A stretch of DNA of 64,000 bases from positions 1 through 64,000 of the forward strand of contig CAMAVU010000003.1 of the NCBI GenBank assembly GCA_945861935.1. Reading direction: 5' to 3'. Shown piece by piece: positions 4,168 through 60,733 of this stretch. A program made the translations under genes and the position numbers. Source of the stretch: Bifidobacterium breve (GTDB lineage: Bacteria; Actinomycetota; Thermoleophilia; Miltoncostaeales; Miltoncostaeaceae). Below the pieces are notes generated by a model. That model did not search any database. It was not told the origin of the DNA and worked only from the letters and a program-made list of their open reading frames with translations. Position 1 is the stretch's first letter; the number at the start of each line of letters is the position of its first letter.

Positions 4168-4920
4168 CTACGTCCGGTTGAGGGCCAGGAGCACCGCCTG
4201 CATGGTGGGGCCGGCCTGCTCCTGGATCCGCACGGTGCACCGCTCGTCGTAGTCGGTTTCGCTCTCGGTGAGGATTGCCAGGCGGCCCCCGCGCGCGAGC
4301 ACCACGCCCGGCAGTTGGCTGACCGGGGTGACCCGCAGCGATGAACCGATGACGAGCATCACATCGGCCCGCTCGGCAGCATCGAAGGCGGCATTGATGG
4401 CCTGCGCCGGCATCTGCTCGCCGAACAGCACCACCCCGCTCTTCATCGGGAACCCGCAGCTGCACCGGGGCACGCCGTCGGCGGCGGCGTCTGCACGTGC
4501 ACACAACTCATCCATGCTCACCGCATTTCCGCACCGCAGGCATGACCCGCGGTCGAGGGACCCGTGCACCTCGATCACGCCATCCGACCCCGCGCGTGAG
4601 TGCAACCGGTCGATGTTCTGGGTGATGAGGGTCTTCACGATGCCACGCCGCTGCAACTCGGCCACGGCCCGGTGCGCGGAGTTGGGGTCGGCCGACGTGA
4701 GCATGTCGATGCGCGGGCGGTGGAAGCGCCAGAACAGCGATGGGTCGTCCATGAACGTGGTCATGGACGCCACCGCCATGGGATCGTGGTTCTCCCACAG
4801 TCCGCCGGCCGAGCGGAAGTCGGGGATGCCGCTCTCGGTCGAAATGCCTGCGCCGGTCAGCACGACGGCGTGCTCGGCATCCGCCAGAAGGCGGGCAAGA
4901 ACCCCCGGGCGGTCGCTCAT
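4168..4920 (-). CDS. NAD-dependent protein deacylase (sirtuin, CobB-like)
   Basis: 250 aa from ATG at 4920; the frame is open further upstream but that extension runs through a palindrome and has no protein-like content. All sirtuin signatures are present: GAGIS at about 23-27, TQNID at 100-104, catalytic His119 in IEVHGS, the zinc cysteines C127/C130 and C153/C155, the VLFGE segment and GSSLRVTP. It removes acyl groups from lysines using NAD+, giving nicotinamide and O-acyl-ADP-ribose, in the cytoplasm. The second cysteine pair is CxC rather than the usual CxxC, a small variation. It is divergent from rph, with a 31-bp palindrome between the two starts. Confidence 0.92.
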   Translation of the reverse strand: MSDRPGVLARLLADAEHAVVLTGAGISTESGIPDFRSAGGLWENHDPMAVASMTTFMDDPSLFWRFHRPRIDMLTSADPNSAHRAVAELQRRGIVKTLITQNIDRLHSRAGSDGVIEVHGSLDRGSCLRCGNAVSMDELCARADAAADGVPRCSCGFPMKSGVVLFGEQMPAQAINAAFDAAERADVMLVIGSSLRVTPVSQLPGVVLARGGRLAILTESETDYDERCTVRIQEQAGPTMQAVLLALNRT

Positions 4921-6331: not shown

Positions 6332-7065
6332 TCGACCCCGCCGGCAAGCGAGCGCTGGTGACCGGCGGCGCCCGGCGCGTGGGTGCTGCGATGGTGTCGG
6401 CGCTTGCCGCCAGCGGCGTGGACGTGGCCATCCACCACCGGGCCTCACCCGACGAGGCCGAGGCCCTGGCCTCCCGGTGCCGCGAGCGTGGGGTGGCCGC
6501 GGTGGTGCTGCAGGCCGACCTGGCCGAGCCGGGCGCGGCCGAGGCTCTGGCCCATCAGGCCGAGGAGGCCCTGGGCGGTGTGGACATCCTCATCACCTCC
6601 GCCAGCACCTGGGAGTCGGCCCCGTTCGAGGAGGTGGACCGCGCCATGTGGGACCGTGCTCTGGCCGTCAATCTGACCGCGCCCATGTTCCTGTCCCAGG
6701 CTCTCGGTGCGCGGATGGCACGTCGCGGCTTCGGCCGCATCGTGGCCATCGGCGACGTGGCCGGCCTCAGGCCGTGGCCGCACCGCGCCCCGCACTCGGT
6801 GAGCAAGGCGGGCCTGATGATGCTCACGCGCATTCTGGCCCATGCCTATGCGCCCCACGTGCTGGCCAACGCCATCGTGCCGGGTCCGGTGCTGATGCCC
6901 GACGACGCCAGCGCGGAGGCGGCGATGAACGTCGCCGACGGGACCGTACTGGGCCGTCTGGGAACCCCGGGGGACGTCGTGGATGCCATGCTGTATCTCG
7001 TGAGTGCCGAGTACGTCACGGGTCAGTGTCTCGTGGTGGACGGCGGACAGGCGGAGCGCACGTGA
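6328..7065 (+). CDS. SDR-family oxidoreductase, pteridine-reductase-like, atypical active site
   Basis: 245 aa, beginning in the ATGA overlap with rdgB. The N-terminal TGGARRVG cofactor loop with a following basic region (HHRAS) suggests NADP(H) binding. The C-terminal LVVDGGQ is typical of FabG/FolM-like enzymes. The catalytic set is altered: the Tyr of YxxxK is His156 (HSVSK, Lys160 retained), the usual Ser is in IGDVAG (Asp143 at that position), and the NAG motif reads SAS. It may therefore have a different substrate or mechanism, or a non-redox role. The position within an rph-rdgB run is conserved housekeeping context but gives no substrate. Family assignment is firm; activity is not. 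Confidence 0.85.
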   Translation: MIDPAGKRALVTGGARRVGAAMVSALAASGVDVAIHHRASPDEAEALASRCRERGVAAVVLQADLAEPGAAEALAHQAEEALGGVDILITSASTWESAPFEEVDRAMWDRALAVNLTAPMFLSQALGARMARRGFGRIVAIGDVAGLRPWPHRAPHSVSKAGLMMLTRILAHAYAPHVLANAIVPGPVLMPDDASAEAAMNVADGTVLGRLGTPGDVVDAMLYLVSAEYVTGQCLVVDGGQAERT

Positions 7066-7793
7066 GCGATTCCGCGCTGCCTGACCGCGCCCGCCTGGCG
7101 CCCGGTCGCCTGCTGTCATGGGCGATCTCCGCCGTCCTCATTGGCTGGGTGGTGGTGTACAACGCCATGCGCGTCGCGGGCGGAACGCCCGCCGGCGTGG
7201 CGTGGACCTCGCTCGTCATCGGGGCGATCGCCGGGCTGGTGGTGCTCGGCCTCGGCATCTGGGTGCGCGTACGGCTCATTGGCAGCGGCCGCATCCACCC
7301 GGTGGACCCCGAGATGGACATCCCGGGCCCCGGTAGTCTGGCACCCGCGCAGGCGTCAGCCATCGGCATCACATGGCCCGTCGTGGCGGTGGCCGCGGCG
7401 GTGCAGGTGGTTCTGGCTGTGCTGCTCTTCCTCGACTGGCGCGGCACGTCCGGTGACACGCGCGCCACGGCGGAACTCATCATGGCGGTGTGGTTCATCT
7501 TCGCCGGGCCGTGGCTGGGGTGGGAGGTCGGCAACCTGCGCCATCGTGACGCGGGCGGTCTTGATTCGGTGGCGCTCGGCACCCTGCTCAGCACCGTGCT
7601 GGCGGGGGTGGCGATCTCGCGGGAGTTCTCGCCGGTCGTCTCGGCCGTCGCCGTGGTCGCCGCCGGTGCGGCATCGGTGCTGTCCTACCACGGCGTGCAC
7701 CGCCTCACCCGCGACCGCGGCCTTCCGTGGATGACCATCGCCGCCGGCCTCATCGCGGTGGCCTCGCTGCTCATCCCGCTGCTCACCCGGTGA
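7062..7793 (+). CDS. Multi-pass membrane protein, unknown function
   Basis: 243 aa from GTG at 7062, overlapping the SDR stop by 4 bp. About six hydrophobic helices are visible: around 18-36, 48-68, 105-127, 142-158, 176-196 and 222-241. There are short basic loops between the first pairs and no recognisable catalytic motif or signal peptide. The 4-bp overlaps on both sides place it firmly in the same transcript as rdgB and the zinc-ribbon gene downstream. No family was recognised. The spacing of the helices does not suggest a transporter class that I can name. Confidence 0.75.
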   Translation: MSDSALPDRARLAPGRLLSWAISAVLIGWVVVYNAMRVAGGTPAGVAWTSLVIGAIAGLVVLGLGIWVRVRLIGSGRIHPVDPEMDIPGPGSLAPAQASAIGITWPVVAVAAAVQVVLAVLLFLDWRGTSGDTRATAELIMAVWFIFAGPWLGWEVGNLRHRDAGGLDSVALGTLLSTVLAGVAISREFSPVVSAVAVVAAGAASVLSYHGVHRLTRDRGLPWMTIAAGLIAVASLLIPLLTR

Positions 7794-8131
7794 CCGTGCG
7801 TCTCCGCTGTCCGTTGTGCGAGGTGGTGGTGGCCGACGGCACCGCCGACATCTCCCCGGGCACCTGCCCCGGATGCGGCGCCCGATACGAAGGGGGCCAG
7901 GCCAGCGCACCCGACTCCGTGCGCACCGCACTGGCTGCCTTCGGCGCCGACACCCTGGATGCCATGGCCGTCACCAGTGCGCTCTTCGCCTGCACGCCGG
8001 CCGAGTCGGCTGCGCGCGGCGTGGCCATCACCTCCGACCAGCGCGACGGTTTCTACTGCTGGTGGTTGTTCGCGCGCGAGGAGGGTGACTGCGACGTGGT
8101 CGCCACGCTCGGCCTGCTCGACAGCAGGTGA
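7790..8131 (+). CDS. Small zinc-ribbon protein, unknown function
   Basis: 113 aa from GTG at 7790, again in a 4-bp overlap. The N-terminus has CPLC then CPGC about 22 residues later, a four-cysteine rubredoxin-like zinc ribbon. It is followed by a mostly helical region with further single cysteines (FACTP, FYCWW, DCD). No enzyme motif is seen. The tight coupling to the membrane protein suggests a joint function. Start choice rests on the overlap and on the zinc ribbon beginning at residue 7. Confidence 0.7.
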   Translation: MTVRLRCPLCEVVVADGTADISPGTCPGCGARYEGGQASAPDSVRTALAAFGADTLDAMAVTSALFACTPAESAARGVAITSDQRDGFYCWWLFAREEGDCDVVATLGLLDSR

Positions 8132-21023: not shown

Positions 21024-22739
21024 ATGCGAGGAGTCGACGCGACCCTCGAGGTCCTGAAGCGAAACGGCGTGGATGCCATATTCGGCATCCCCGGCGGCCC
21101 GCTCATCCCGCTGTTCGACGCGCTGTTCGACCACTCGGACATCCGCCTCTTCCTCACCCGCCACGAGCAGGGCGCGGGCCACATGGCCGAGGGCTACGCC
21201 AAGGCCTCGGGACGTATCGCGGTCTGCACCGGCACGTCCGGCCCGGGCGCCACCAACCTGGTCACCCCCATCGCCGACGCCTACATGGACTCCGTCCCCA
21301 TGCTGGCCCTCACGGGACAGGTGGGCTCCGCACGCGTCGGAACCGATGCGTTCCAGGAGGCCGACATCGTCGGCATCTCCCTGCCCGTGGTCAAGCACTC
21401 GTGGCTGGTCAAGGATGCCCACGAACTGCCCACGGTCCTCGAGGAGGCCATCCACGTGGCCACCACGGGCCGCCCGGGGCCGGTGCTGGTGGATGTCTGC
21501 GTGGACCAGTGGGCCGTGGAGGTGGAGGACTACACGGGGCCCCGCCCCCCCGAGATGCCCGGCTACGCGCCGCACACCGGCGCCGGCCACCCGCGGCAGT
21601 TGCAGGCCGCGGCGCGGGCGATCGCGGCGGCGAAGAAGCCGATGCTCTATGCCGGGGGCGGCGTGATCGCCAGTAATGCGGCTGAAGAGCTCACGCGCAT
21701 GGCCGAGGTCGCGCAGATCCCGGTGGCCACCACCCTCATGGGCCTCGGCGGGTTCCCGGCGTCCAACCCGCTGTTCGTCGGCATGCCCGGCATGCACGGC
21801 ATCGCCGCCTCCACCTTCGCGTTCCAGGAGAGCGACCTGATCCTCGCCGTGGGTGTGCGATTCGACGAGCGGGTGCTCTCGACCGTCATGAACGAGTGGG
21901 CACCCAACGCGAAGATCATCCACATCGACATCGACCCGGCCGAAATCAGCAAGAACCGCGCCGCGCACATCGGTATCGCAGGAGAGGCCAAGGCCGTCCT
22001 GCACGCGCTCGCCGACACCTACGTGCAGCAGCAGGCACGCCACGATGACGAGTCGCGCGCCGCCTGGAGGCACACGATCAACGCGTGGCTCGACGAATTC
22101 CCATATCAGGTGGACGATGACGAGCCGGGCGTCATCGCCCCGCAGAACGTCATCAAGTCGGTGTACGACATCACCGGCGGCGACGCCATCATCGCCACCG
22201 AGGTCGGCCAGCACCAGATGTGGGCAGCGCAGTTCTACCGGTTCGACAGGCCGCGCCGGTGGATCACCTCGGGCGGTCTGGGCACCATGGGCTTCGGCCT
22301 GCCGGCCTCGCTCGGCGCTCAGGTGGCGTTCCCCGACGAGTTGGTGGTGGACATCGCCGGCGACGGATCGTTCGAGATGACCCTGCAGGAACTCTCCACA
22401 GCGCAGACCTACGGCCTGCCCATCAAGATCGTCATCCTGAACAACGGCTTCCTTGGCATGGTGCGCCAGTGGCAGGAATTGTTCTGGGACAAGCGGTACT
22501 CCAACACCTCGTTCGGCGACTTCCAGCCCGACTTCGCCAAGTTGGCGGGGGCCTATGGGATCCCCGGCATGCGGGTGGAGGACCCGGCCGAGCTGGACGA
22601 CGCCCTGCGTGAGACCCTCTCCACCGATGGCCCCGCCCTCATCGACATCCAGGTCAACCGCGACGCCAAGGTGTTCCCCATGGTGCCGCAGGGCAAGGGC
22701 CCCGGCGCCGTCATGGTGAGGGATCCGACCAAGAAGTAG
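21024..22739 (+). CDS. ilvB: Acetolactate synthase large subunit-like ThDP enzyme
   Basis: 571 aa; ATG with GGGAGG upstream. The three ThDP-enzyme domains are in order: the catalytic glutamate in RHEQGAGHMAEGYAKASG, a central FAD-type domain (LYAGGGVIAS), and the ThDP/Mg motif GDGSFEMTLQEL..NN at the C-terminal domain. MVRQWQELFWDKRYS is the substrate-pocket segment of biosynthetic acetohydroxyacid synthases. It condenses pyruvate with pyruvate or 2-oxobutyrate in branched-chain amino acid synthesis. No ilvN regulatory subunit or ilvC follows, so a specialised paralogue or a related carboligase is possible. Confidence 0.88.
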   Translation: MRGVDATLEVLKRNGVDAIFGIPGGPLIPLFDALFDHSDIRLFLTRHEQGAGHMAEGYAKASGRIAVCTGTSGPGATNLVTPIADAYMDSVPMLALTGQVGSARVGTDAFQEADIVGISLPVVKHSWLVKDAHELPTVLEEAIHVATTGRPGPVLVDVCVDQWAVEVEDYTGPRPPEMPGYAPHTGAGHPRQLQAAARAIAAAKKPMLYAGGGVIASNAAEELTRMAEVAQIPVATTLMGLGGFPASNPLFVGMPGMHGIAASTFAFQESDLILAVGVRFDERVLSTVMNEWAPNAKIIHIDIDPAEISKNRAAHIGIAGEAKAVLHALADTYVQQQARHDDESRAAWRHTINAWLDEFPYQVDDDEPGVIAPQNVIKSVYDITGGDAIIATEVGQHQMWAAQFYRFDRPRRWITSGGLGTMGFGLPASLGAQVAFPDELVVDIAGDGSFEMTLQELSTAQTYGLPIKIVILNNGFLGMVRQWQELFWDKRYSNTSFGDFQPDFAKLAGAYGIPGMRVEDPAELDDALRETLSTDGPALIDIQVNRDAKVFPMVPQGKGPGAVMVRDPTKK

Positions 22740-23998: not shown

Positions 23999-24436
23999 TT
24001 ACTTCCTACGCGCCGGAGCCTTCTGTTTCGGCGCCGGGTCGTGATCCACCACGAACTTGTACGAGTAGTAGATGTCGCCCTCGTGGCCCAGTTTGACCCG
24101 CCGCAGGGTGGCCGCCACGCGGGTGCCCACCTCCACGTCGTCGGGCTCCACGCCCATCACGGGTGCCGGCAGGGTGACGCCCTCGTCCATCCGGATGTGG
24201 CCCACCACGTAGGGCTCCTGGCCGAGGAACTCCCGCGGCGGGTAGTACACGACCGTGTAGTTGGTGATCTCGCCTGTTCCCTTGAGTGGGAACTCGGTGA
24301 GGGTATCGCCGCCGCACGCGTAGCAGTGGCTGCGCTCCCACCAGGGGCTGAGCCCGCCGCATCCCGAGCACTTCATCGCGAACAGGTGCAACTTGGGCGG
24401 GCCGAGCCGGGAGAACTCGATGGCGGAGACGGTCAT
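23999..24436 (-). CDS. DUF35 OB-fold protein with zinc ribbon (acyl-CoA enzyme partner)
   Basis: 145 aa. An N-terminal rubredoxin-like zinc ribbon (CSGCGG and CYACGG, about 23-43) is followed by the OB-fold with TGTGEI-like GTGEITNYTVVYYPP, and a lysine-rich tail. DUF35 proteins bind thiolase-fold enzymes and can carry the CoA-binding surface. Only 3 bp separate it from the upstream thiolase gene, so it probably forms a complex with that thiolase and the HMGCS-like protein, as in archaea. Confidence 0.9.
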   Translation of the reverse strand: MTVSAIEFSRLGPPKLHLFAMKCSGCGGLSPWWERSHCYACGGDTLTEFPLKGTGEITNYTVVYYPPREFLGQEPYVVGHIRMDEGVTLPAPVMGVEPDDVEVGTRVAATLRRVKLGHEGDIYYSYKFVVDHDPAPKQKAPARRK

Positions 24437-24439
24437 CGG

Positions 24440-25609
24440 CTAGTCCTCGATGCGCTGGTAGATGTGGATGGCGCCGACCGAACCCGGCCCGCCGCGGCAG
24501 GCCGAGAGGCCGATCCGGGCGTCCTTGCGCAGCGTGCCCTCGGGCGCCGTGCCGCGCAGTTGCTCGACGATGTCCACGGCCTGCGTGGACCCGGTCGCGC
24601 CCAGCGGATGCCCCTTGCACAGCAGCCCGCCGGACGGGTTCACGGCCACCTTGCCGTCGAGCCACGTGGAGCCGTCAATGGCCCCCTTCCAGCCCTCACC
24701 GCGCGGAGCGAAACCCAGGCCCTCGATGCCGAGTGGCTCCTGGATGGCGAACGAGTTGTAGATCTCGGCCACGTCAATGTCATCGGCAGTGACCCCCGCC
24801 ATGGCGTAGGCCCGGGCCGCAGGGCCGGCGAACAGGTTGTACCCGTCGTCCAGGGTGTCGGTGGCCTGGTACCAGGTGCCGGTGGCCATGGACGTGGCCG
24901 TGATGAACACCTGCGGCTTGTCCGGCTGGGCCGCGAGGATCTCGGGGCGGCACAGGACGAGGGCCGACGCGGCGTCTGTCATGGGGCACACCTCGTACAA
25001 CTTGAGGGGATCGGCAACCTTGGGGCTGTTCATCACCTCTTCGACGGTGCACTCGAAGCGCAGGTGGGCCGAGGGGTTGCGGGCCCCGTAGTAGTGGTTC
25101 TTGACCGACGTGTGCGCGAGGTCCTCCTCGCTCACACCGTAGGTCTGCATGTACTTGCGGGCGGTCAGCGCGGTACCCGACGGGAAGGTGAGCCCCGTGA
25201 AGTACTCCTCCTTGCTGTCGGCCGCCTGGGCGATGATCGAGGTGCCCTCGACCGTGGCCAGGTCGTTCATCTTCTCGCAGCCGAGCACCATGACGATGTC
25301 GTAGAGACCCGACTCGATCGCCACGCAGCCCGAGTGCACGGCCCATGCGCCCGTGCCGCAGGCCGCCTCGACCCGCACGGCGCCAGCGGGAACAAGGCCC
25401 AGGTGGTGGGCCACCATGAGGCCGGTGGAGTTCTCGTAGTTGAACCCGACCGACCCGACGTTGCCCACGTAGAGCATCTGGATGTCCCGCGGGGACACGC
25501 CCGCGTCGGCGAGCGCCTGACGCCCGGCCTCGACGGCGAGATCCTTCAGGGACTTGTGGTGCTGAATCTTGTGCGGGGTCTTGCCGATCCCCAGGACGCC
25601 GACCTTCAT
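24440..25609 (-). CDS. Thiolase (acetyl-CoA acetyltransferase / SCP-x type)
   Basis: 389 aa. All catalytic elements are present: the nucleophile Cys84 in VEAACGTG, NPSGGLLCKGHPLGATG with His334, and the second cysteine C371 in SACRGGPGS. It is of the SCP2/archaeal subgroup rather than the FadA type. It could form or cleave 3-oxoacyl-CoA. It is placed between the HMGCS-like gene (25 bp upstream) and DUF35 (3 bp downstream), the gene set of the archaeal acetoacetyl-CoA thiolase/HMG-CoA synthase complex. Confidence 0.93.
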   Translation of the reverse strand: MKVGVLGIGKTPHKIQHHKSLKDLAVEAGRQALADAGVSPRDIQMLYVGNVGSVGFNYENSTGLMVAHHLGLVPAGAVRVEAACGTGAWAVHSGCVAIESGLYDIVMVLGCEKMNDLATVEGTSIIAQAADSKEEYFTGLTFPSGTALTARKYMQTYGVSEEDLAHTSVKNHYYGARNPSAHLRFECTVEEVMNSPKVADPLKLYEVCPMTDAASALVLCRPEILAAQPDKPQVFITATSMATGTWYQATDTLDDGYNLFAGPAARAYAMAGVTADDIDVAEIYNSFAIQEPLGIEGLGFAPRGEGWKGAIDGSTWLDGKVAVNPSGGLLCKGHPLGATGSTQAVDIVEQLRGTAPEGTLRKDARIGLSACRGGPGSVGAIHIYQRIED

Positions 25610-25634
25610 GCGTATCTCCCGTGCCCTCGCGGGC

Positions 25635-26627
25635 CTAGTGAGGAACCTGCTGGCGCCCCTCGGTCCAGCGGTAGTAGGTGCCGACGGCGATCGTCTCGCC
25701 CGCGTCGATCATCGCACGGGTGCCGATGGCCGCGGGCTTCTTCGTCACCGTCACCTCCTGAGCCACGGCCTCGCCGCCGCCGTAGGCCAGCGCCAGCAGG
25801 GTGCTGCCCTTCCGCGATGCGTCCAGACCCAGGCACAGGGCGAGACCCACCGACGCCGCGCCGACGTTGCCGATGTCGGCCACGAACTGCGTGGCCTCGA
25901 GTTGCTTCGGCTGCGCTCCCAGACGGGCAAGCCCGCGCAGCACCTGGGGGTGCGGCTGGCTGGGGCAGATCGCGGTGTACCGGCCCGTGGCGCGCTCGGT
26001 CGCCTGCTCGAGTCCCTTCGCCGCCGCCGACGTTGCCTGCGCGTAGGCGTCAAACAGCACCTCCAGCCGGAACCGGGGCTCCGTTTCCCGGCCGAGCATC
26101 CAGACGTCGAAGACCTCCTCGGCGGCGCGCGCCTGAGGACCGAGGGTCGCAATGCCCTCCGCCGTCGGTGCGGGGTCAATCAGGAAGGCGGTCGCCGCCC
26201 CGGCCGACAGCACGTCCGCCACCCGGTCGCGATATGCCACCAGGTGGTCGGTTGCCACCACGAGCACCGGCCCCACATCCAGACCCTGCGCGATGCGGAA
26301 GCCGTCCAGCAGGCCCGTGGCGTTGGCACCCAGATCGATGTGCAGCGCGCCGTCATCAAGGCGCAGGGCCTGACTGAGCGTCTGAGACATCTTCCTCAGC
26401 CCGAAGGGCGGGGCCTGGGTGGCCACGATCACGGCCCCCACGCCCCGGTCGCCCTTCAGCGCCTCGCGCGCCGCCTCGTAGGCCATCGTGAGGGTGTCCT
26501 CATCCAGACCAGGAGTGGCGAGCGCACGCGACCGGGGACGTCCCGGCCGCCCGTAGAACTTCTGGATCTCACCGAGCGGGGCCCGGTACTGGGGTACATA
26601 GGCCCCGTAGCGGGTGAGCACGGCCAC
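25635..26627 (-). CDS. HMG-CoA synthase-like protein lacking the catalytic cysteine
   Basis: 330 aa with the archaeal HMGCS/KAS III fold: it starts LTRYGAYVPQYR, has VGAVIVAT, a central FVADIGNVGAASVGLAL and the late LALAYGGGEAVAQEV. Where active enzymes have a cysteine after a short hydrophobic strand, this one reads HIDLGANATGLL (96-107), so it cannot form the usual acetyl-enzyme. It may be a structural partner that channels CoA substrates, or may run a different reaction. It sits 3 bp from the CoA ligase gene and 25 bp from the thiolase gene. Confidence 0.82.
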   Translation of the reverse strand: MAVLTRYGAYVPQYRAPLGEIQKFYGRPGRPRSRALATPGLDEDTLTMAYEAAREALKGDRGVGAVIVATQAPPFGLRKMSQTLSQALRLDDGALHIDLGANATGLLDGFRIAQGLDVGPVLVVATDHLVAYRDRVADVLSAGAATAFLIDPAPTAEGIATLGPQARAAEEVFDVWMLGRETEPRFRLEVLFDAYAQATSAAAKGLEQATERATGRYTAICPSQPHPQVLRGLARLGAQPKQLEATQFVADIGNVGAASVGLALCLGLDASRKGSTLLALAYGGGEAVAQEVTVTKKPAAIGTRAMIDAGETIAVGTYYRWTEGRQQVPH

Positions 26628-26630
26628 GGC

Positions 26631-28289
26631 TTAGCGCTTCACCTTCACGCCGGCAGCCTCGCGGTCCCAGGTGTCGGCGGTGATGCCCTCGTCGCGCAGC
26701 TTGTTCTTCTGCACGCGCTCGGTGGGCGTCTTCGGGAGCGCGTCCACGAAACGGATGTAGCGCGGCACCATGAAGTACGGCATGCGCTCCGCCATGAACT
26801 CGGTGATCTCGACCATGTCGGGCACCGCACCGTCGGCGACGCAGACGATCATGATCTCGTCCTCTGACGACGCACCCTCGCCGGCCTTCACACCGATGGC
26901 GGCGGCCTCCTTGACGCCCGGGTGCTCGGACACCTGACGCTCGACCTCCATGGACGAGACGTTCTCGCCACGGCGGCGGATGTAGTCCTTCACGCGGTCC
27001 ATGAAGTAGATGTAGCCGTCCTCATCCATGCGGCCGAGGTCGCCCGTGTGCAACTTGAGGTTCTTGAAGTCCTCGGCGGTCTTCTCGGGCATGCCGTAGT
27101 AGGCGCGCATCACGATGTTCGGGATCTTCATGTCCACGACGATCTCGCCGGGCGTGTCCGCGGGCAGCGGCCGGTCGGTACCCGGCTCGACCACGAACAC
27201 CTCATAGCCGGGGTTGGCCACGCCGATCGAGCCCGGCACCGCCGGCTTGGTCGGGTCCATGTAGGTGGCCATGCCGGTCTCGGTGAGGCCGTACCCCTCG
27301 ATGAACCGGACGCCGAAGCGGTCCTGGAACTCGTAGTAGATGTCCTTCGGCGTGGGCGCGGCGAACACCGTGTGCACCTTGTGCGCCGTGTCCAGATCCG
27401 ACGGCGGGATGTTCCAGATGAAGTACGACACGGCGCCGATCGAGTTGAACACCGTCGCCTCGGCGTCGATGACCTGCTGCCAGAACTGGCTCGACGAGAA
27501 GCGCTCGACGTAGGCGATCCGGCCGCCGGCGACCAGCGCCGGGTAGCCCGAGAGCACCTGCGCGTTGCTGTGGAAGAGCGGCAGACACGAGAAGAAGGTG
27601 TCGTCGGCGAGCTCCTCCAGATTCCGGCCCGACGTGGCCGACACGACCTCCAGCAGACCGCGGGCCGAGAAGTAGTCGGCGGCGTTCTGCTTGATCACGC
27701 CCTTGCTGCGGCCGGTGGTGCCCGAGGTGAACATGATGCGGGCGTCATCCACCCACGAGTACTCGACGCCGTCCGGCTCGCCGTCGGGCGCCTCCATCAG
27801 CGCGTCGAGCGGCTCCCACCTGAGCGACGGGTCGGGACCCTCCTGCTTACCCGTCTTCATCACGATCACGTGCTCCAGCAGGGGGAGTTCCTTCGCGACG
27901 AAGTCCAGACGCTCCAGGAAGGTGTCCGAGATGAACAGCTTCTTCGCCTCGACCAGGTTGATCGTCCAGGAGAGGAAGTCACCCTTGTAGGCGGTGTTGA
28001 TGGACGACATCACGGCGCCGGCCTTGAGGATGCCGAACCAGACCGGCAGGAACTCCTCGCAGTTCGGCAGCATCACGCTGACCGACTCGCCCTTCTGCAC
28101 GCCACGGGCGAGCAGCGCGTTGGCGATGCGGTTCGCCCGGCTGTTGATCTCGCCGTAACTCACCCACGGGTTGCCCGCGAACTTCAGGAGGTCGCGGTCA
28201 GGGTGGGCCTCGGCCTTCTCGGTGAGGATCTTCGCGAGGATCCAGTTGGTGGGATCCTCCTTGCTGTACCAATCGCTCCAGTCGGCCAT
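26631..28289 (-). CDS. Acyl-CoA ligase (CaiC/FadD-type AMP-binding enzyme)
   Basis: 552 aa from ATG at 28289, preceded by GAGGAGAA; the frame is open to 28451 but that part overlaps the end of the neighbouring DUF35 gene. The AMP-binding signature FTSGTTGRSKGVIK, the motif YGLTETGMATY, the hinge TGDLGRMDEDGYIYFMDR, and the C-terminal catalytic lysine region KTPTERVQKNKLR are in place. It activates a carboxylic acid to its CoA thioester with ATP; closest in style to crotonobetaine/carnitine CoA ligases. It likely feeds the thiolase and DUF35 enzymes encoded around it. The substrate is not deducible. Confidence 0.93.
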   Translation of the reverse strand: MADWSDWYSKEDPTNWILAKILTEKAEAHPDRDLLKFAGNPWVSYGEINSRANRIANALLARGVQKGESVSVMLPNCEEFLPVWFGILKAGAVMSSINTAYKGDFLSWTINLVEAKKLFISDTFLERLDFVAKELPLLEHVIVMKTGKQEGPDPSLRWEPLDALMEAPDGEPDGVEYSWVDDARIMFTSGTTGRSKGVIKQNAADYFSARGLLEVVSATSGRNLEELADDTFFSCLPLFHSNAQVLSGYPALVAGGRIAYVERFSSSQFWQQVIDAEATVFNSIGAVSYFIWNIPPSDLDTAHKVHTVFAAPTPKDIYYEFQDRFGVRFIEGYGLTETGMATYMDPTKPAVPGSIGVANPGYEVFVVEPGTDRPLPADTPGEIVVDMKIPNIVMRAYYGMPEKTAEDFKNLKLHTGDLGRMDEDGYIYFMDRVKDYIRRRGENVSSMEVERQVSEHPGVKEAAAIGVKAGEGASSEDEIMIVCVADGAVPDMVEITEFMAERMPYFMVPRYIRFVDALPKTPTERVQKNKLRDEGITADTWDREAAGVKVKR

Positions 28290-28332: not shown

Positions 28333-28767
28333 TCAGGCCGCGGGGGTGAACTTGGGCATGGTGATCTCGTCCGTGACGTCGTCGAAGACGATGCGGACCC
28401 GCATGCCGATCTGGACGTCCCCGGCGTCGAGCGACGGGAACCCATCCTCATCCTTCACGAGGATGGTCATCATCCGGGGACCCTCGTCGAGGTCGATGAG
28501 CGCCACGATGTGCGGCGGGTCGCCCTTGTACGACTTGCTGGGCCCGATGAAGTGGGTCGAGTAGGTGTAGACGGTCCCCTGACCGGACGCGTCCATCCAG
28601 GACGTCTGGCCAAGGGTGCCCGGTGCGTACTTGCGCGGGTACCAGAACGGCTTGCCGGCGTCATCGCACGGCAGGATGAAGCGGTGCTCCCTGAGCGCGT
28701 CCCAGAAGGTGGCGTCCTCGGGGCGCAGGTCGGGAAGAGGCTTGGTGTAGGCGGGCTTCTCGGACAT
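28333..28767 (-). CDS. DUF35 OB-fold protein with degenerate zinc ribbon
   Basis: 144 aa. The N-terminal helix FWDALREHRFILP leads to a zinc-ribbon region that keeps only one cysteine (PCDDAGKPFWYPR). An OB-fold follows with GTVYTYSTHF, PHIVALIDLDEGPRM and VGMRV-like GMRVRIVF. Its gene lies 39 bp after the thiolase-fold gene, the same pairing as ChsH2-type DUF35 with Ltp2 aldolase in steroid side-chain breakdown. Loss of the zinc ligands suggests the ribbon is now purely structural. Confidence 0.87.
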   Translation of the reverse strand: MSEKPAYTKPLPDLRPEDATFWDALREHRFILPCDDAGKPFWYPRKYAPGTLGQTSWMDASGQGTVYTYSTHFIGPSKSYKGDPPHIVALIDLDEGPRMMTILVKDEDGFPSLDAGDVQIGMRVRIVFDDVTDEITMPKFTPAA

Positions 28768-28806
28768 CTCTCGGTGTCTCCTCGTTCGTCTCGGTCGTGA
28801 GCGCTG

Positions 28807-30045
28807 CTACGCCGCCGACGGCGGCTCGCTGGACAGCACCAGCGCGCTCGTGGCCGCGAGAATGCCGCCCGAGCCGTTCGTGATCGCAAGTCTGGCGTCC
28901 GGCACCTGATGGTTGCCGCCGTTGAACTCGGTCCTGCCCGAGTCATCCGCTTCGCCGCGGAGTTGCAGTACGGCCTCGATGATGTGGTGCATCGCGCCGA
29001 GGTGCGCCTGGCGGATGAGACCGCCGTGGGTGTTCATCGGCAGGGTCCCGCCGAGCTTGGCGTGCCCCTCCATCACCCAGTCGCCCGCCTCGCCGACACC
29101 GCAGATGCCGAAGCCCTCGAGCGCGATGAGCGGGGTGAACGAGAACGAGTCGTAGATCTCGGCCACGTCGAGGTCCTGCGGAGTGATGCCGGCCACTTCC
29201 ATGGCACGGCGTCCGGCGCGGCCGAGCCCATCCCGTACCGATGCGACCGACTCGGCCTGCGAGATGTACTGGTGGGAGAAGCCCTCGCCGATACCGGTGA
29301 TGTACACGGGCTTCTTCTTCATGCTCTTGGCGCGGGTCTCGGTGGTGACGATGAACGCGGCTGCGCCGTCGGTCACCAGCGAGCAGTCCATCACGTGGAA
29401 CGGGGTGGCGATCCACCGGTCGGCCAGCACGTCCTCAATGGTCACGACGTTGCGGAGCATGGCATTCCACTTGAGAGCAGCATGCTCGGACTGCGTGGCC
29501 ACCACGGCGGCCAGGGCCTCCTGCGGCACGTTGTGCTCGTGCATGTAGCGCTGCGCCAGCAGGCCGTAGCCACCGATGGTGGTGAGGCCGAACGGGGCCT
29601 CGTAGGCGCCGTGGCTCATCTCGCGGGCCATCGCGATCATGCCCGACGACGAGATGCCCGAGCGGGTGTTGTCGCCGCGGACGCACAGCACGACCTCGGC
29701 CAGACCGGCGTCAATGGCCAGCGCCGCCTGAACGGCCATCAGAGGGGCGGTGGCGCCGCCCACAGCGACGGAGGCGAAATAGCCGGGCTTCATGCCCATG
29801 TAGTCGGCCAGGGTCGTGGAGTGCATCAGCGTGGACTCGACGAACGAGAACGCGGTGACGATGCCGTCGATGTCCTTCAGCTCGAGACCGGCGTCGTCGA
29901 GCGTGGTGCGGGTCACCTCGGCGAGCAACTCGAACGAGCCGCGGTCGCTGATGATGCCCTGCTCGGTCTCGCCAACACCTGCGATGCAGATGCCCTTGGC
30001 CAGCATCCGGCGTGCTTCCCTGACGTCGGGCGTTCCCTCGGCCAT
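28807..30045 (-). CDS. Thiolase-fold protein without the catalytic cysteine (lipid-transfer/aldolase type)
   Basis: 412 aa with a full thiolase fold: GICIAGVGETEQG at the start, LDVAEIYDSFSFTPL in the middle and MNTHGGLIRQAHLGAM at the GHP position. The nucleophile site reads SVAVGGATAP (92-101), with glycine instead of cysteine, and the C-terminal CxGG is NGSGG. This is the pattern of SCP-x-like/Ltp2-type proteins, which act as retro-aldolases with a DUF35 partner; one is encoded just downstream. Its natural substrate is unknown. It leads the minus-strand acyl-CoA operon that runs to 24.0 kb. Confidence 0.88.
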   Translation of the reverse strand: MAEGTPDVREARRMLAKGICIAGVGETEQGIISDRGSFELLAEVTRTTLDDAGLELKDIDGIVTAFSFVESTLMHSTTLADYMGMKPGYFASVAVGGATAPLMAVQAALAIDAGLAEVVLCVRGDNTRSGISSSGMIAMAREMSHGAYEAPFGLTTIGGYGLLAQRYMHEHNVPQEALAAVVATQSEHAALKWNAMLRNVVTIEDVLADRWIATPFHVMDCSLVTDGAAAFIVTTETRAKSMKKKPVYITGIGEGFSHQYISQAESVASVRDGLGRAGRRAMEVAGITPQDLDVAEIYDSFSFTPLIALEGFGICGVGEAGDWVMEGHAKLGGTLPMNTHGGLIRQAHLGAMHHIIEAVLQLRGEADDSGRTEFNGGNHQVPDARLAITNGSGGILAATSALVLSSEPPSAA

Positions 30046-30813: not shown

Positions 30814-31113
30814 TTGGCAGACGACCCGTACTACGACAAGGAGTCCGACACCTACCGTGTGATCCACAAGGGTCACGCGAGCGCGTCGGCAGTGACCAAC
30901 TCCGAGGGCGTGACGGTCTTCTTCGACCCCGAGAACCATGACGTCCTCGGCTTCTCGATCACGCAGTTCTCCACGTACTACGAGGCGCACGTCACGCCCG
31001 CAGGTGAGTTCGAGGTAGTCCTCCCGGCCCGTATTCCGGCCAACCTCGAGGAGGAGATGGACTTCGACGAGGAGACGATCCGCAAGGGCGTCAGGATCGC
31101 GGAGTTCTACTAG
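30814..31113 (+). CDS. Small DUF2283-like protein
   Basis: 99 aa with a rare TTG start at 30814, supported by AAGGAG 7 bases upstream. The sequence begins with an acidic YYDKESDTYRV segment. A VTVFFDPENHDVLGFSITQF beta unit follows, then an acidic helix (LEEEMDFDEET) and a basic end. It is a clear relative of the 106-aa protein encoded at 20591-20911. The end overlaps the convergent sirtuin-like gene by 4 bp. Function is unknown. Confidence 0.75.
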   Translation: MADDPYYDKESDTYRVIHKGHASASAVTNSEGVTVFFDPENHDVLGFSITQFSTYYEAHVTPAGEFEVVLPARIPANLEEEMDFDEETIRKGVRIAEFY

Positions 31114-31862
31114 GGGACCAGTAGGTCGACGACCCCGGGAAGCACCTCGGGGGCCGGCCGGGGAATGACCATCGTCGCGTAGCGGTCGTAGTGCGTGCGG
31201 GTGGTCCCGACGATGACCACGGGGATGCCCGCCTGCAGGGGCACGGAGGGCAGCATCGCCATCGGATCGGTCCGCAGTTGCGAATCGATGATGACGAACA
31301 GATCGCACGTGGCAGCCAGGTCCCACGCACGGATGATGGCGGCCTCGATCAGGGGCTCCCCCCACAGGGTGCCGGTCGGGCGGAGCGGGTAGCAACACCC
31401 CTCACGGGTGCAGCGGGGCACGCCGTCGGCCGAGTCCTCAATCAGCCCCTGGACCTCGGAGAGCGCATAGACATCGTCGCAGCGCTCGCACCGGCACGAG
31501 AGCACGTTGGCGTGCACCTCGACCACCTCGCCACCGCTCGCCTGAGCATGCAGGTGATCCACGGCCTGCGTGATGACGGCCGTGATGATCCCGGCATCGT
31601 GCAGGCGCCCGAGCGCGAGGTGCGCGGGCGTTACCGTGCGCCATGATGCCTCCACTGCACGGGGCAGCCAGTTGGCCCAAAAGCGGCCGGGCTCGATGAG
31701 GAGCACCTCCAGGCTGGCCGCCTCGCCCCACGCAGATCCCGCGGCCCGAGCCTCGGTCTCCTCGGTGGCGCCCAGACGAACGCCCGTCATGGCCACGCAG
31801 CGCTCCGATGCAGCCAGCATCCCGGCCAGGCGCTGGATGCCGTCGGCGAGGTCGTCCGGCAT
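31110..31862 (-). CDS. Degenerate sirtuin-like protein
   Basis: 250 aa, the same length as the true sirtuin at 4.2 kb. Retained: the TQAVDHLHAQASG segment aligned with TQNIDxLHxxAG, the catalytic-position His117 in VEVHAN, zinc cysteines around 123-128 and 151-157, and TGTLWGE at the VLFGE position. Lost: GAGIS (now TGVRLGA), the Asn of TQN (Ala100), and GSSL (now DSQL). NAD binding and deacylation are therefore doubtful. It may be a binding or ADP-ribose-related relative. It is co-directional with the MFS gene upstream (9 bp). Confidence 0.75.
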   Translation of the reverse strand: MPDDLADGIQRLAGMLAASERCVAMTGVRLGATEETEARAAGSAWGEAASLEVLLIEPGRFWANWLPRAVEASWRTVTPAHLALGRLHDAGIITAVITQAVDHLHAQASGGEVVEVHANVLSCRCERCDDVYALSEVQGLIEDSADGVPRCTREGCCYPLRPTGTLWGEPLIEAAIIRAWDLAATCDLFVIIDSQLRTDPMAMLPSVPLQAGIPVVIVGTTRTHYDRYATMVIPRPAPEVLPGVVDLLVP

Positions 31863-58659: not shown

Positions 58660-59685
58660 ATGGCCGACCAGTTTGCTGTTACCTACATCCCTGGTGCCGA
58701 GACCGGGGAAATCCCGCCGTCGCCCGTCGATCGTGACGAGAAGACTGCGTTCATCTACAGCCTCGTCGACCCCGTCTGGGACATCGACACGCTGCCGCTG
58801 ACCTACACCAACTCGCGCTGGTCAGCGTTCTTCTACCGTGCCGACGAGAAGCGCCTGCGCCGCGTGGTGCCGGACTGCCTCGACGTCGAGGACGACGTTA
58901 TTGAGCACTGGTACGTGGACCACCGCAACACCATGCTTGGCCCGTACCTGGAGTGGGGCCTCACGGTCGCCGCTTCGCACAAGGCTGGCGATGGTAAGAC
59001 CTACTACGCCGGTTACTACCCGTACATGTACCTCACGCAGGACGCCGCGATCGACGCCGGTCGCGTGCTGGGTTTCCCGAAGAAGGAAGCCTTCATCCGC
59101 ATCAACGAGCACGGTGGCGCACCGGACGACGGTTACGGCGTCTACGACGGCCACAACTGGAAGTGGAACCACTTCTCGTTCATGATGATCCGTAACGGTT
59201 ACGTGATCCACAGCGTCATTGGTAAGTACGACGACGCTGAGCTCTCGGCCAAGCCGGCTTTCTACGGCAACACCGAGTACGGCCGCATGAACATGAAGGT
59301 TGTTACCGCTCCGGACGTCTCGAGCTCCGAGTGGCAGCTGGTGTACCTGCCTTCGCTGGTCACCAAGGGCCTCGCAGACCTCATTGGTCGTCCCGAGACC
59401 GAAGGTGCCCACCGCTTCCAGGTGAAGCCGGAGAGCATCCGTACCACGTCGCCGGACAACATCGAGTGGTTCCAGCAGGCGACTCCGTTCGACAACCTCG
59501 GCGCGGAGCTGCCGGTGGGCGAGATGATCGGTCTCATGACCTTCTCGTTCGACCTCATCATCCCGGCGGGCATGACCCTCTGGACCGAGACCTACACGCG
59601 CGACGCGACGTGGGCCGGCGCGGCTAAGCCTTACCGTTACGGTCTCCGTCACCGCTTCCCGAAGCCCATCGGCCTCGGCGCGTAA
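58660..59685 (+). CDS. Acetoacetate-decarboxylase superfamily protein 1
   Basis: 341 aa with AGGGGGG before the ATG. The middle of the protein matches the acetoacetate decarboxylase fold, with the Schiff-base lysine pair in LGFPKKEAF (K141/K142) after YYAGYYPYMYLTQDAA. GLMTFSFDLIIPAG lies near the end. It is longer than classical enzymes (about 245 aa). Codons ending in T (GGT, CGT, GTT) are more frequent than in neighbouring genes, usual for highly expressed genes in GC-rich genomes. The paralogue follows 28 bp later. Substrate not known; a small 3-oxo acid is possible. Confidence 0.85.
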   Translation: MADQFAVTYIPGAETGEIPPSPVDRDEKTAFIYSLVDPVWDIDTLPLTYTNSRWSAFFYRADEKRLRRVVPDCLDVEDDVIEHWYVDHRNTMLGPYLEWGLTVAASHKAGDGKTYYAGYYPYMYLTQDAAIDAGRVLGFPKKEAFIRINEHGGAPDDGYGVYDGHNWKWNHFSFMMIRNGYVIHSVIGKYDDAELSAKPAFYGNTEYGRMNMKVVTAPDVSSSEWQLVYLPSLVTKGLADLIGRPETEGAHRFQVKPESIRTTSPDNIEWFQQATPFDNLGAELPVGEMIGLMTFSFDLIIPAGMTLWTETYTRDATWAGAAKPYRYGLRHRFPKPIGLGA

Positions 59686-59713
59686 ACCAGAGCCCAGAGA
59701 GAGGAAATTCACA

Positions 59714-60733
59714 ATGGGACAGATTGTTGACGTTACGTCGACCCCGTGGATCGACTCGGGCGACGCGCCACCGCTGGCGCTCGACCGTGACAAGCGCGAC
59801 ATCATCAGTCAGGGTATCGCTGACCCGCTCGTCGACTACGACATCGTGCCGCTCACGTACACGAACTCGCGCTGGAGCGCGTTCTTCTACCGGTGCACCG
59901 AGGCAGACCTGAAGCACGTTCTGCCGAAGTGCCTCGACCTTGAGGACGACGTCATCGAGTTCTGGTACGTCGACCACCTTCACACCGGACTTGGCCCGTA
60001 CGGCGAGTTCGGCTTGACGGTGGCCGCATCCCACAAGGGTGGGGACGGCATCACGTACTACGCCGGGTACTACCCGTACATGTACCTCACGCAGGACGCC
60101 GCTGTGTTCGCCGGCCGTGAGCCCTTCGGATTCCCGAAGAAGATCGCCTACATCGTCTCGCAGGAGCACGGTGGCAAGGAGGACGATGGCTACGGTGGGT
60201 TCGGCAACGACTACTTCAACTTCACGATGGAGCGTCGCGGCTACCTGATTCACACCGCAACAGGCCGTTACGACGACGCAGCGCTGCCGGCGAAGCCGGC
60301 GTTCTACGGCGACCCGAGCTACGGCCGCATGAACCTCCGTCTCATCACGGATCCGTCGCTCAAGACCACCAAGTGGGACTTGACGTACCTTCCGTCGACC
60401 GTCACGCCGGGGCTTGCCGCGGCAATGGGCCGGCCGGAGACCGAGGGCCAGCACCGCTTCCAGTTGAAGCCCGAGTCGATCCGTACCGCTTCGGCGGGGG
60501 CGATCCGCTCGTGGGCGCTTCAGGCGACCCCGTGGGACAACATGGGTGCGATGCTGCCGGTGAGCGAGATGATCGGGCTGATGACTTTCAGCTTCGACCT
60601 GATCATTCCGGGAGCCGACACCCTCTGGACCCAGACCATCGAGCGCACGGACGAGGACCTGATGGACCTGCTGTTCTCGACCCCGTACAAGTACACGATG
60701 CGTCACCGCTTCCCGCAGCCTCCTGGCGTCTGA
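59714..60733 (+). CDS. Acetoacetate-decarboxylase superfamily protein 2
   Basis: 339 aa with AGAGAGGA nine bases before the ATG. It is a close paralogue of the preceding protein, sharing LPLTYTNSRWSAFFYR, the TYYAGYYPYMYLTQDAA block, and the lysines in FGFPKKIAYI (K142/K143). The two may form a mixed complex, or one may have taken a new substrate. The codon pattern again suggests high expression. It is followed by a classic terminator. Confidence 0.85.
   Translation: MGQIVDVTSTPWIDSGDAPPLALDRDKRDIISQGIADPLVDYDIVPLTYTNSRWSAFFYRCTEADLKHVLPKCLDLEDDVIEFWYVDHLHTGLGPYGEFGLTVAASHKGGDGITYYAGYYPYMYLTQDAAVFAGREPFGFPKKIAYIVSQEHGGKEDDGYGGFGNDYFNFTMERRGYLIHTATGRYDDAALPAKPAFYGDPSYGRMNLRLITDPSLKTTKWDLTYLPSTVTPGLAAAMGRPETEGQHRFQLKPESIRTASAGAIRSWALQATPWDNMGAMLPVSEMIGLMTFSFDLIIPGADTLWTQTIERTDEDLMDLLFSTPYKYTMRHRFPQPPGV

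Follow-up and report, generated by a model that had tools for sequence, protein, structure and literature searches.

A conserved six-gene operon of Miltoncostaeales and the probable scaffold role of its cysteine-less HMGCS-like subunit

Gene layout and distribution of the operon

The window analyzed here is a stretch of 64,000 nucleotides, and three of its genes, all on the minus strand, form a trio of thiolase-superfamily and DUF35 components. They encode an HMGCS-like subunit (25635-26627; GTG start; PRK04262 match), a thiolase subunit (24440-25609; PF22691, 8e-36), and DUF35a, a zinc-ribbon/OB-fold DUF35 protein (23999-24436; PF01796, 2.6e-17); the family assignments from Pfam and NCBIfam are consistent. 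A preliminary description had reported these genes as adjacent, with gaps of 3-25 bp and a CoA ligase as the next gene, and its order and coordinates were correct. The HMGCS-like and thiolase genes are separated by 25 bp and the thiolase and DUF35a genes by 3 bp, while the ligase gene ends at 26631, 3 bp from the HMGCS-like gene. The ligase itself (26631-28289, minus strand; PF00501, 3.1e-64) is an AMP-forming acyl-CoA ligase whose best NCBIfam match, PRK06155, scores under the cut-off of that family. Its start was set from homologs as the ATG at 28289, where the match begins in most of them.

The preliminary description stopped at the ligase and overlooked a second DUF35 gene and a second cysteine-less thiolase-like gene (28333-30045), both also on the minus strand. 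These encode DUF35b, an OB-fold DUF35 protein (28333-28767; PF01796, 6.6e-18), and an Ltp2-like protein with the SCP2-thiolase fold (28807-30045; PF22691, 1.1e-38), whose gene is the first of the operon. The trio makes up the 3′ half of a six-gene operon, in the order Ltp2-like protein, DUF35b, CoA ligase, HMGCS-like subunit, thiolase, and DUF35a. A genome search recovered exactly two DUF35 genes, both within this operon.

Other features of the window deserve mention in their own right. An acetolactate synthase large-subunit gene occupies 21024-22739, with no obvious small-subunit gene alongside; in other genera (loci L027, L028, L030, and L107), an acetolactate synthase gene immediately precedes the operon and has the same orientation. 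A Sir2-family protein encoded at 31110-31862 diverges fast between relatives, most of which have it close to the operon, and a second Sir2-looking protein is encoded at 4168-4920. Two tandem, similar-looking proteins are encoded at 58660-60733, the first of which has a match to PF06314 (acetoacetate decarboxylase) and no strong one in NCBIfam.

The relatives carrying this locus are metagenome-assembled genomes of Miltoncostaeales/Thermoleophilia (Actinomycetota). Across the GTDB family, the six-gene order is repeated on contigs of sufficient length, and this conservation argues that the arrangement of the trio is not due to chance. The sole exception is L030 (genome G025, contig 57, 91-1683), the only case seen in which no CoA ligase separates the HMGCS-like gene from DUF35b. 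Exactly the same 24 of the family's 42 genomes carry the HMGCS-like gene as carry the thiolase gene, a count that weighs less than it appears to because some absences reflect contig breaks. Three genomes (G012, G004, and G016) have the Ltp2-like gene and no trio; their contigs end within the ligase gene and therefore give no evidence of trio loss.

The HMGCS-like subunit and its lost catalytic residues

The HMGCS-like protein matches the NCBIfam models for hydroxymethylglutaryl-CoA synthase below their cut-offs: PRK04262 at 7.4e-29 and 100.9 bits (cut-off 244), and TIGR00748 at 59.3 bits (cut-off 353). Catalytic positions were located by alignment with chain 6esq_I, the HMGCS of the archaeal complex from Methanothermococcus. 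The preliminary description had noted GANATG where the active-site cysteine was expected and considered the protein unable to make HMG-CoA. Both points are borne out: the catalytic cysteine aligns with Ala103 of that motif, and the rest of the triad is lost as well, with Gln71 at the glutamate position and Ser223 at the histidine position. Among the Miltoncostaeales relatives examined, all have Gln, Met, His, or Leu at the glutamate site, Ala, Pro, Gln, or Ser at the cysteine site, and Ser at the histidine site.

A relocated nucleophile can be ruled out. The protein has two cysteines, at 221 and 265, neither conserved nor at the active site, and no cysteine column is invariant across 18 relatives. 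A normal KAS III (FabH) enzyme is likewise ruled out, since the Cys-His-Asn triad has become Ala103 and Ser223 and only Asn254, the asparagine of the KAS III GN motif, is kept. The same holds for a true HMGCS of the mevalonate pathway. In addition to the scores below family cut-offs, neither an HMG-CoA reductase nor a PF01154 HMGCS was found in the genome (about 96% complete) when mevalonate genes were sought, as the preliminary description had proposed. The genome does have IspG, of the MEP pathway, and mevalonate synthesis is therefore excluded within the limits of 96% genome completeness. Family models nonetheless label such proteins "hydroxymethylglutaryl-CoA synthase", wrongly suggesting a mevalonate pathway.

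The idea that the loss of the cysteine is peculiar to this bacterium finds no support. The triad positions are likewise without Cys, Glu, and His in PhlA, MucA, and all scorable actinobacterial HMGCS-like proteins. In the scored alignment, from which loci L122 and L124 are absent, all three triad residues occur only in the archaeal protein, and the two FabH controls retain Cys and His.

Despite the missing triad, the gene bears the marks of selection. Its reading frames are open and free of stops in 24 genomes, and its dN/dS of 0.14-0.22 within the genus indicates purifying selection, in the same range as the operon's other genes. At the family level, it changes faster than any other gene of the operon, with identities of 51-61% versus 80-85% for the thiolase (52-61% versus 81-85% among the pairs from which dN/dS was calculated). 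Conservation is unevenly distributed along the protein: residues 24-33 score 0.95 and the C-terminal tail (317-330) 0.89, against 0.74 overall and 0.60 for residues 99-105, the former cysteine loop. The low conservation of this loop, together with faster change than in the thiolase, is the pattern of a subunit held by its contacts rather than by chemistry.

The fold is retained. An AlphaFold2 model (pLDDT 77.8, pTM 0.82) gave as best Foldseek matches the HMGCS of the archaeal trio, followed by PhlA of CsATase and PpATase, with MucA of MucABC in the top 15. In phylogenetic trees, from which locus L121 was left out, the Miltoncostaeales proteins form their own deep branch with 100/100 support, outside the PhlA, MucA, and archaeal proteins. 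The branches are long and the deeper placement shifts depending on whether FabH is included, so the claim is limited to that of a separate clade. The cysteine-bearing archaeal HMGCS falls among cysteine-less relatives in the tree, and the triad may consequently have been lost more than once.

Partner proteins, proposed mechanism, and alternative readings

The thiolase had been described as having all its catalytic residues. This stands for Cys84, His334, and Cys371, which are invariant in the relatives, and fails for the motif that reads HDCF in the archaeal thiolase and YNSF here. Its nearest solved relatives are acetyl-CoA acetyltransferases; its AlphaFold2 model (pLDDT 34) was not used. In DUF35a, the zinc-ribbon cysteines (C23xxC26...C38xxC41) are all invariant.

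In the upstream pair, the Ltp2-like protein, 83-96% identical across the family, lacks a nucleophilic cysteine and conserves a YDSF motif, with Y298 and H348 invariant in eight alignment rows; its nearest solved chains are 4u4e and 6ok1 (Ltp2). DUF35b, which lacks the CxxC...CxxC pattern and has therefore lost its zinc-ribbon cysteines according to the alignment, is the probable partner of this protein. Most likely, the two carry out a separate retro-aldol-type carbon-carbon step in the same pathway. At one locus (L038, genome G006), the Ltp2-like gene at about 6591-7826 shows an apparent in-frame TAG or frame disruption, which may reflect a sequencing error, a pseudogene, or an artefact of pairwise comparison.

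The best explanation, which we consider probable, is that the HMGCS-like protein serves as a non-catalytic scaffold of the PhlA type in a thiolase-DUF35 complex acting through Cys84 of the thiolase; the scaffold role had already been suggested in the preliminary description. We infer that the three products would assemble into one hetero-oligomeric complex of the archaeal thiolase/HMGCS/DUF35 and PhlACB type. The HMGCS-like subunit would be a pseudoenzyme that has kept its fold and probably its contacts with the thiolase and DUF35a, closing or shaping a shared cavity while performing no covalent chemistry itself. Acyl-CoA would be supplied by the operon's CoA ligase, Cys84 of the thiolase would form the acyl-enzyme, and acid-base work would fall to His334 and Cys371, with Tyr284. 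As for direction, degradative cleavage of acyl-CoA seems somewhat more likely than C-acylation. Overall, the pathway most likely belongs to acyl-CoA metabolism: the ligase would activate an acid, and carbon-carbon bonds would be formed or, more probably, broken by the two thiolase-fold modules.

The opposite direction is the substance of one alternative, in which the HMGCS-like protein is still a scaffold and the trio is an acyltransferase of the PhlACB/MucABC type that builds a C-acylated natural product. PhlA and MucA are similarly dead subunits, and the spacing of 50 between Tyr284 and His334 of the thiolase is close to the 49 between Tyr298 and His347 of PhlC. We nevertheless judge this reading rather unlikely: Cys371, the CxG cysteine, is retained in the thiolase, which is much nearer to 7yvy (2.6e-80) and the archaeal acetoacetyl-CoA thiolase (2.9e-66) than to PhlC (2.8e-27). 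The operon also carries a CoA ligase and the Ltp2-like/DUF35 pair, and no polyketide or peptide synthase was seen among the annotated genes nearby.

Other alternatives concern the HMGCS-like subunit itself. The segment Ser223-Gln-Pro-His226-Pro (SQPHP), Asp98, and Asn254 are invariant in 18 relatives despite the changed catalytic positions, and the old pocket may have some binding or catalytic role. A repurposed enzyme, in which Ser223, His226, Asp98, and Asn254 form a cysteine-independent site that handles the thiolase product, would account for these residues. It is improbable, however, given that, of the segments examined, conservation is lowest in the loop beside the former nucleophile, that four different residues occur at the cysteine site, and that PhlA, the structurally close analogue whose triad is also missing, is non-catalytic. 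A bolder version is quite improbable: a neofunctionalized enzyme using Ser223-Gln-Pro-His226 and Asn254 for a cysteine-independent step on the product of the thiolase, within an operon that works as a two-module carbon-carbon cleaving machine of an undescribed pathway, one module being the thiolase trio and the other an aldolase made of the Ltp2-like protein and DUF35b. Decay into a gene without function is hardly credible; it would fit the fastest rate of change among the six genes, but not the intact frames, the purifying selection, the invariant C-terminal motif, or the exact co-occurrence with the thiolase.

Comparison with known systems

The scaffold reading draws on PhlACB, a monoacetylphloroglucinol acyltransferase known from PpATase of Pseudomonas protegens and from CsATase. 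In that complex, PhlA lacks Cys and Glu, catalysis relies on PhlC residues only, and all three subunits are required (PMC6392133); the function of the PhlC cysteine is confirmed by the CsATase variant C88S (PMC12955522). The Miltoncostaeales trio shares with it a thiolase-like subunit with a nucleophilic cysteine and histidine (here Cys84 and His334), a DUF35 subunit with a Cys4 zinc ribbon (C23, C26, C38, and C41), and an HMGCS-like subunit without the catalytic Cys and Glu whose fold places PhlA among its best PDB matches. The differences are also clear: identity between the HMGCS-like protein and PhlA is about 22% and the two do not group together, the thiolase is nearest to acetyl-CoA acetyltransferases and has a CxG cysteine (Cys371) that is not among the reported PhlC active-site residues, and the operon adds a CoA ligase and the Ltp2-like/DUF35 pair.

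The archaeal thiolase/HMGCS/DUF35 complex comprises the same three families encoded by adjacent genes, and it provides the best sequence and fold match to the HMGCS-like subunit and the best sequence match to DUF35a. Its HMGCS, however, keeps Glu82, Cys114, and the histidine and serves the mevalonate pathway (PMC6392133 and PMC12329534), whereas the protein studied here has lost the triad and its genome yielded no HMG-CoA reductase. MucABC, a tetramate acyltransferase of Streptococcus (9VBO), likewise has a KAS III/HMGCS-like chain without Cys, Glu, and His at the aligned positions, but identity is 14%, and its genes belong to a natural-product cluster that includes a hybrid peptide/polyketide synthase.

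HMGCS-like reading frames of other Actinomycetota (for example, L067, L068, and L109) also lack all three residues, and a thiolase gene adjoins them in most loci checked. They differ in being usually longer, at about 470-560 aa, and in forming a separate clade in the tree; in L035, for example, a DUF35 match lies within the same frame as the HMGCS-like sequence. The second pair of the operon finds its counterparts in the steroid aldolases Ltp2-ChsH2(DUF35) and Sal-Shy, which share a thiolase fold without a nucleophilic cysteine, the tyrosine of the YDxF motif, and an adjoining DUF35 gene. Unlike these systems, His348 here aligns with the second catalytic tyrosine of Ltp2, Tyr344 (PMC12329534), DUF35b has no zinc ribbon, and the operon has no MaoC hydratase gene.

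A cysteine-less HMGCS-like subunit is already an established feature of related bacterial complexes such as PhlACB. What is new is the lineage, the operon, and the survey of how general the loss of the triad is. The non-catalytic subunit is not a curiosity of PhlACB, as cysteine-less versions occur throughout the Actinomycetota sampled, and the conserved six-gene operon may encode a new acyl-CoA pathway of uncultured Miltoncostaeales, a proposal that can be tested.
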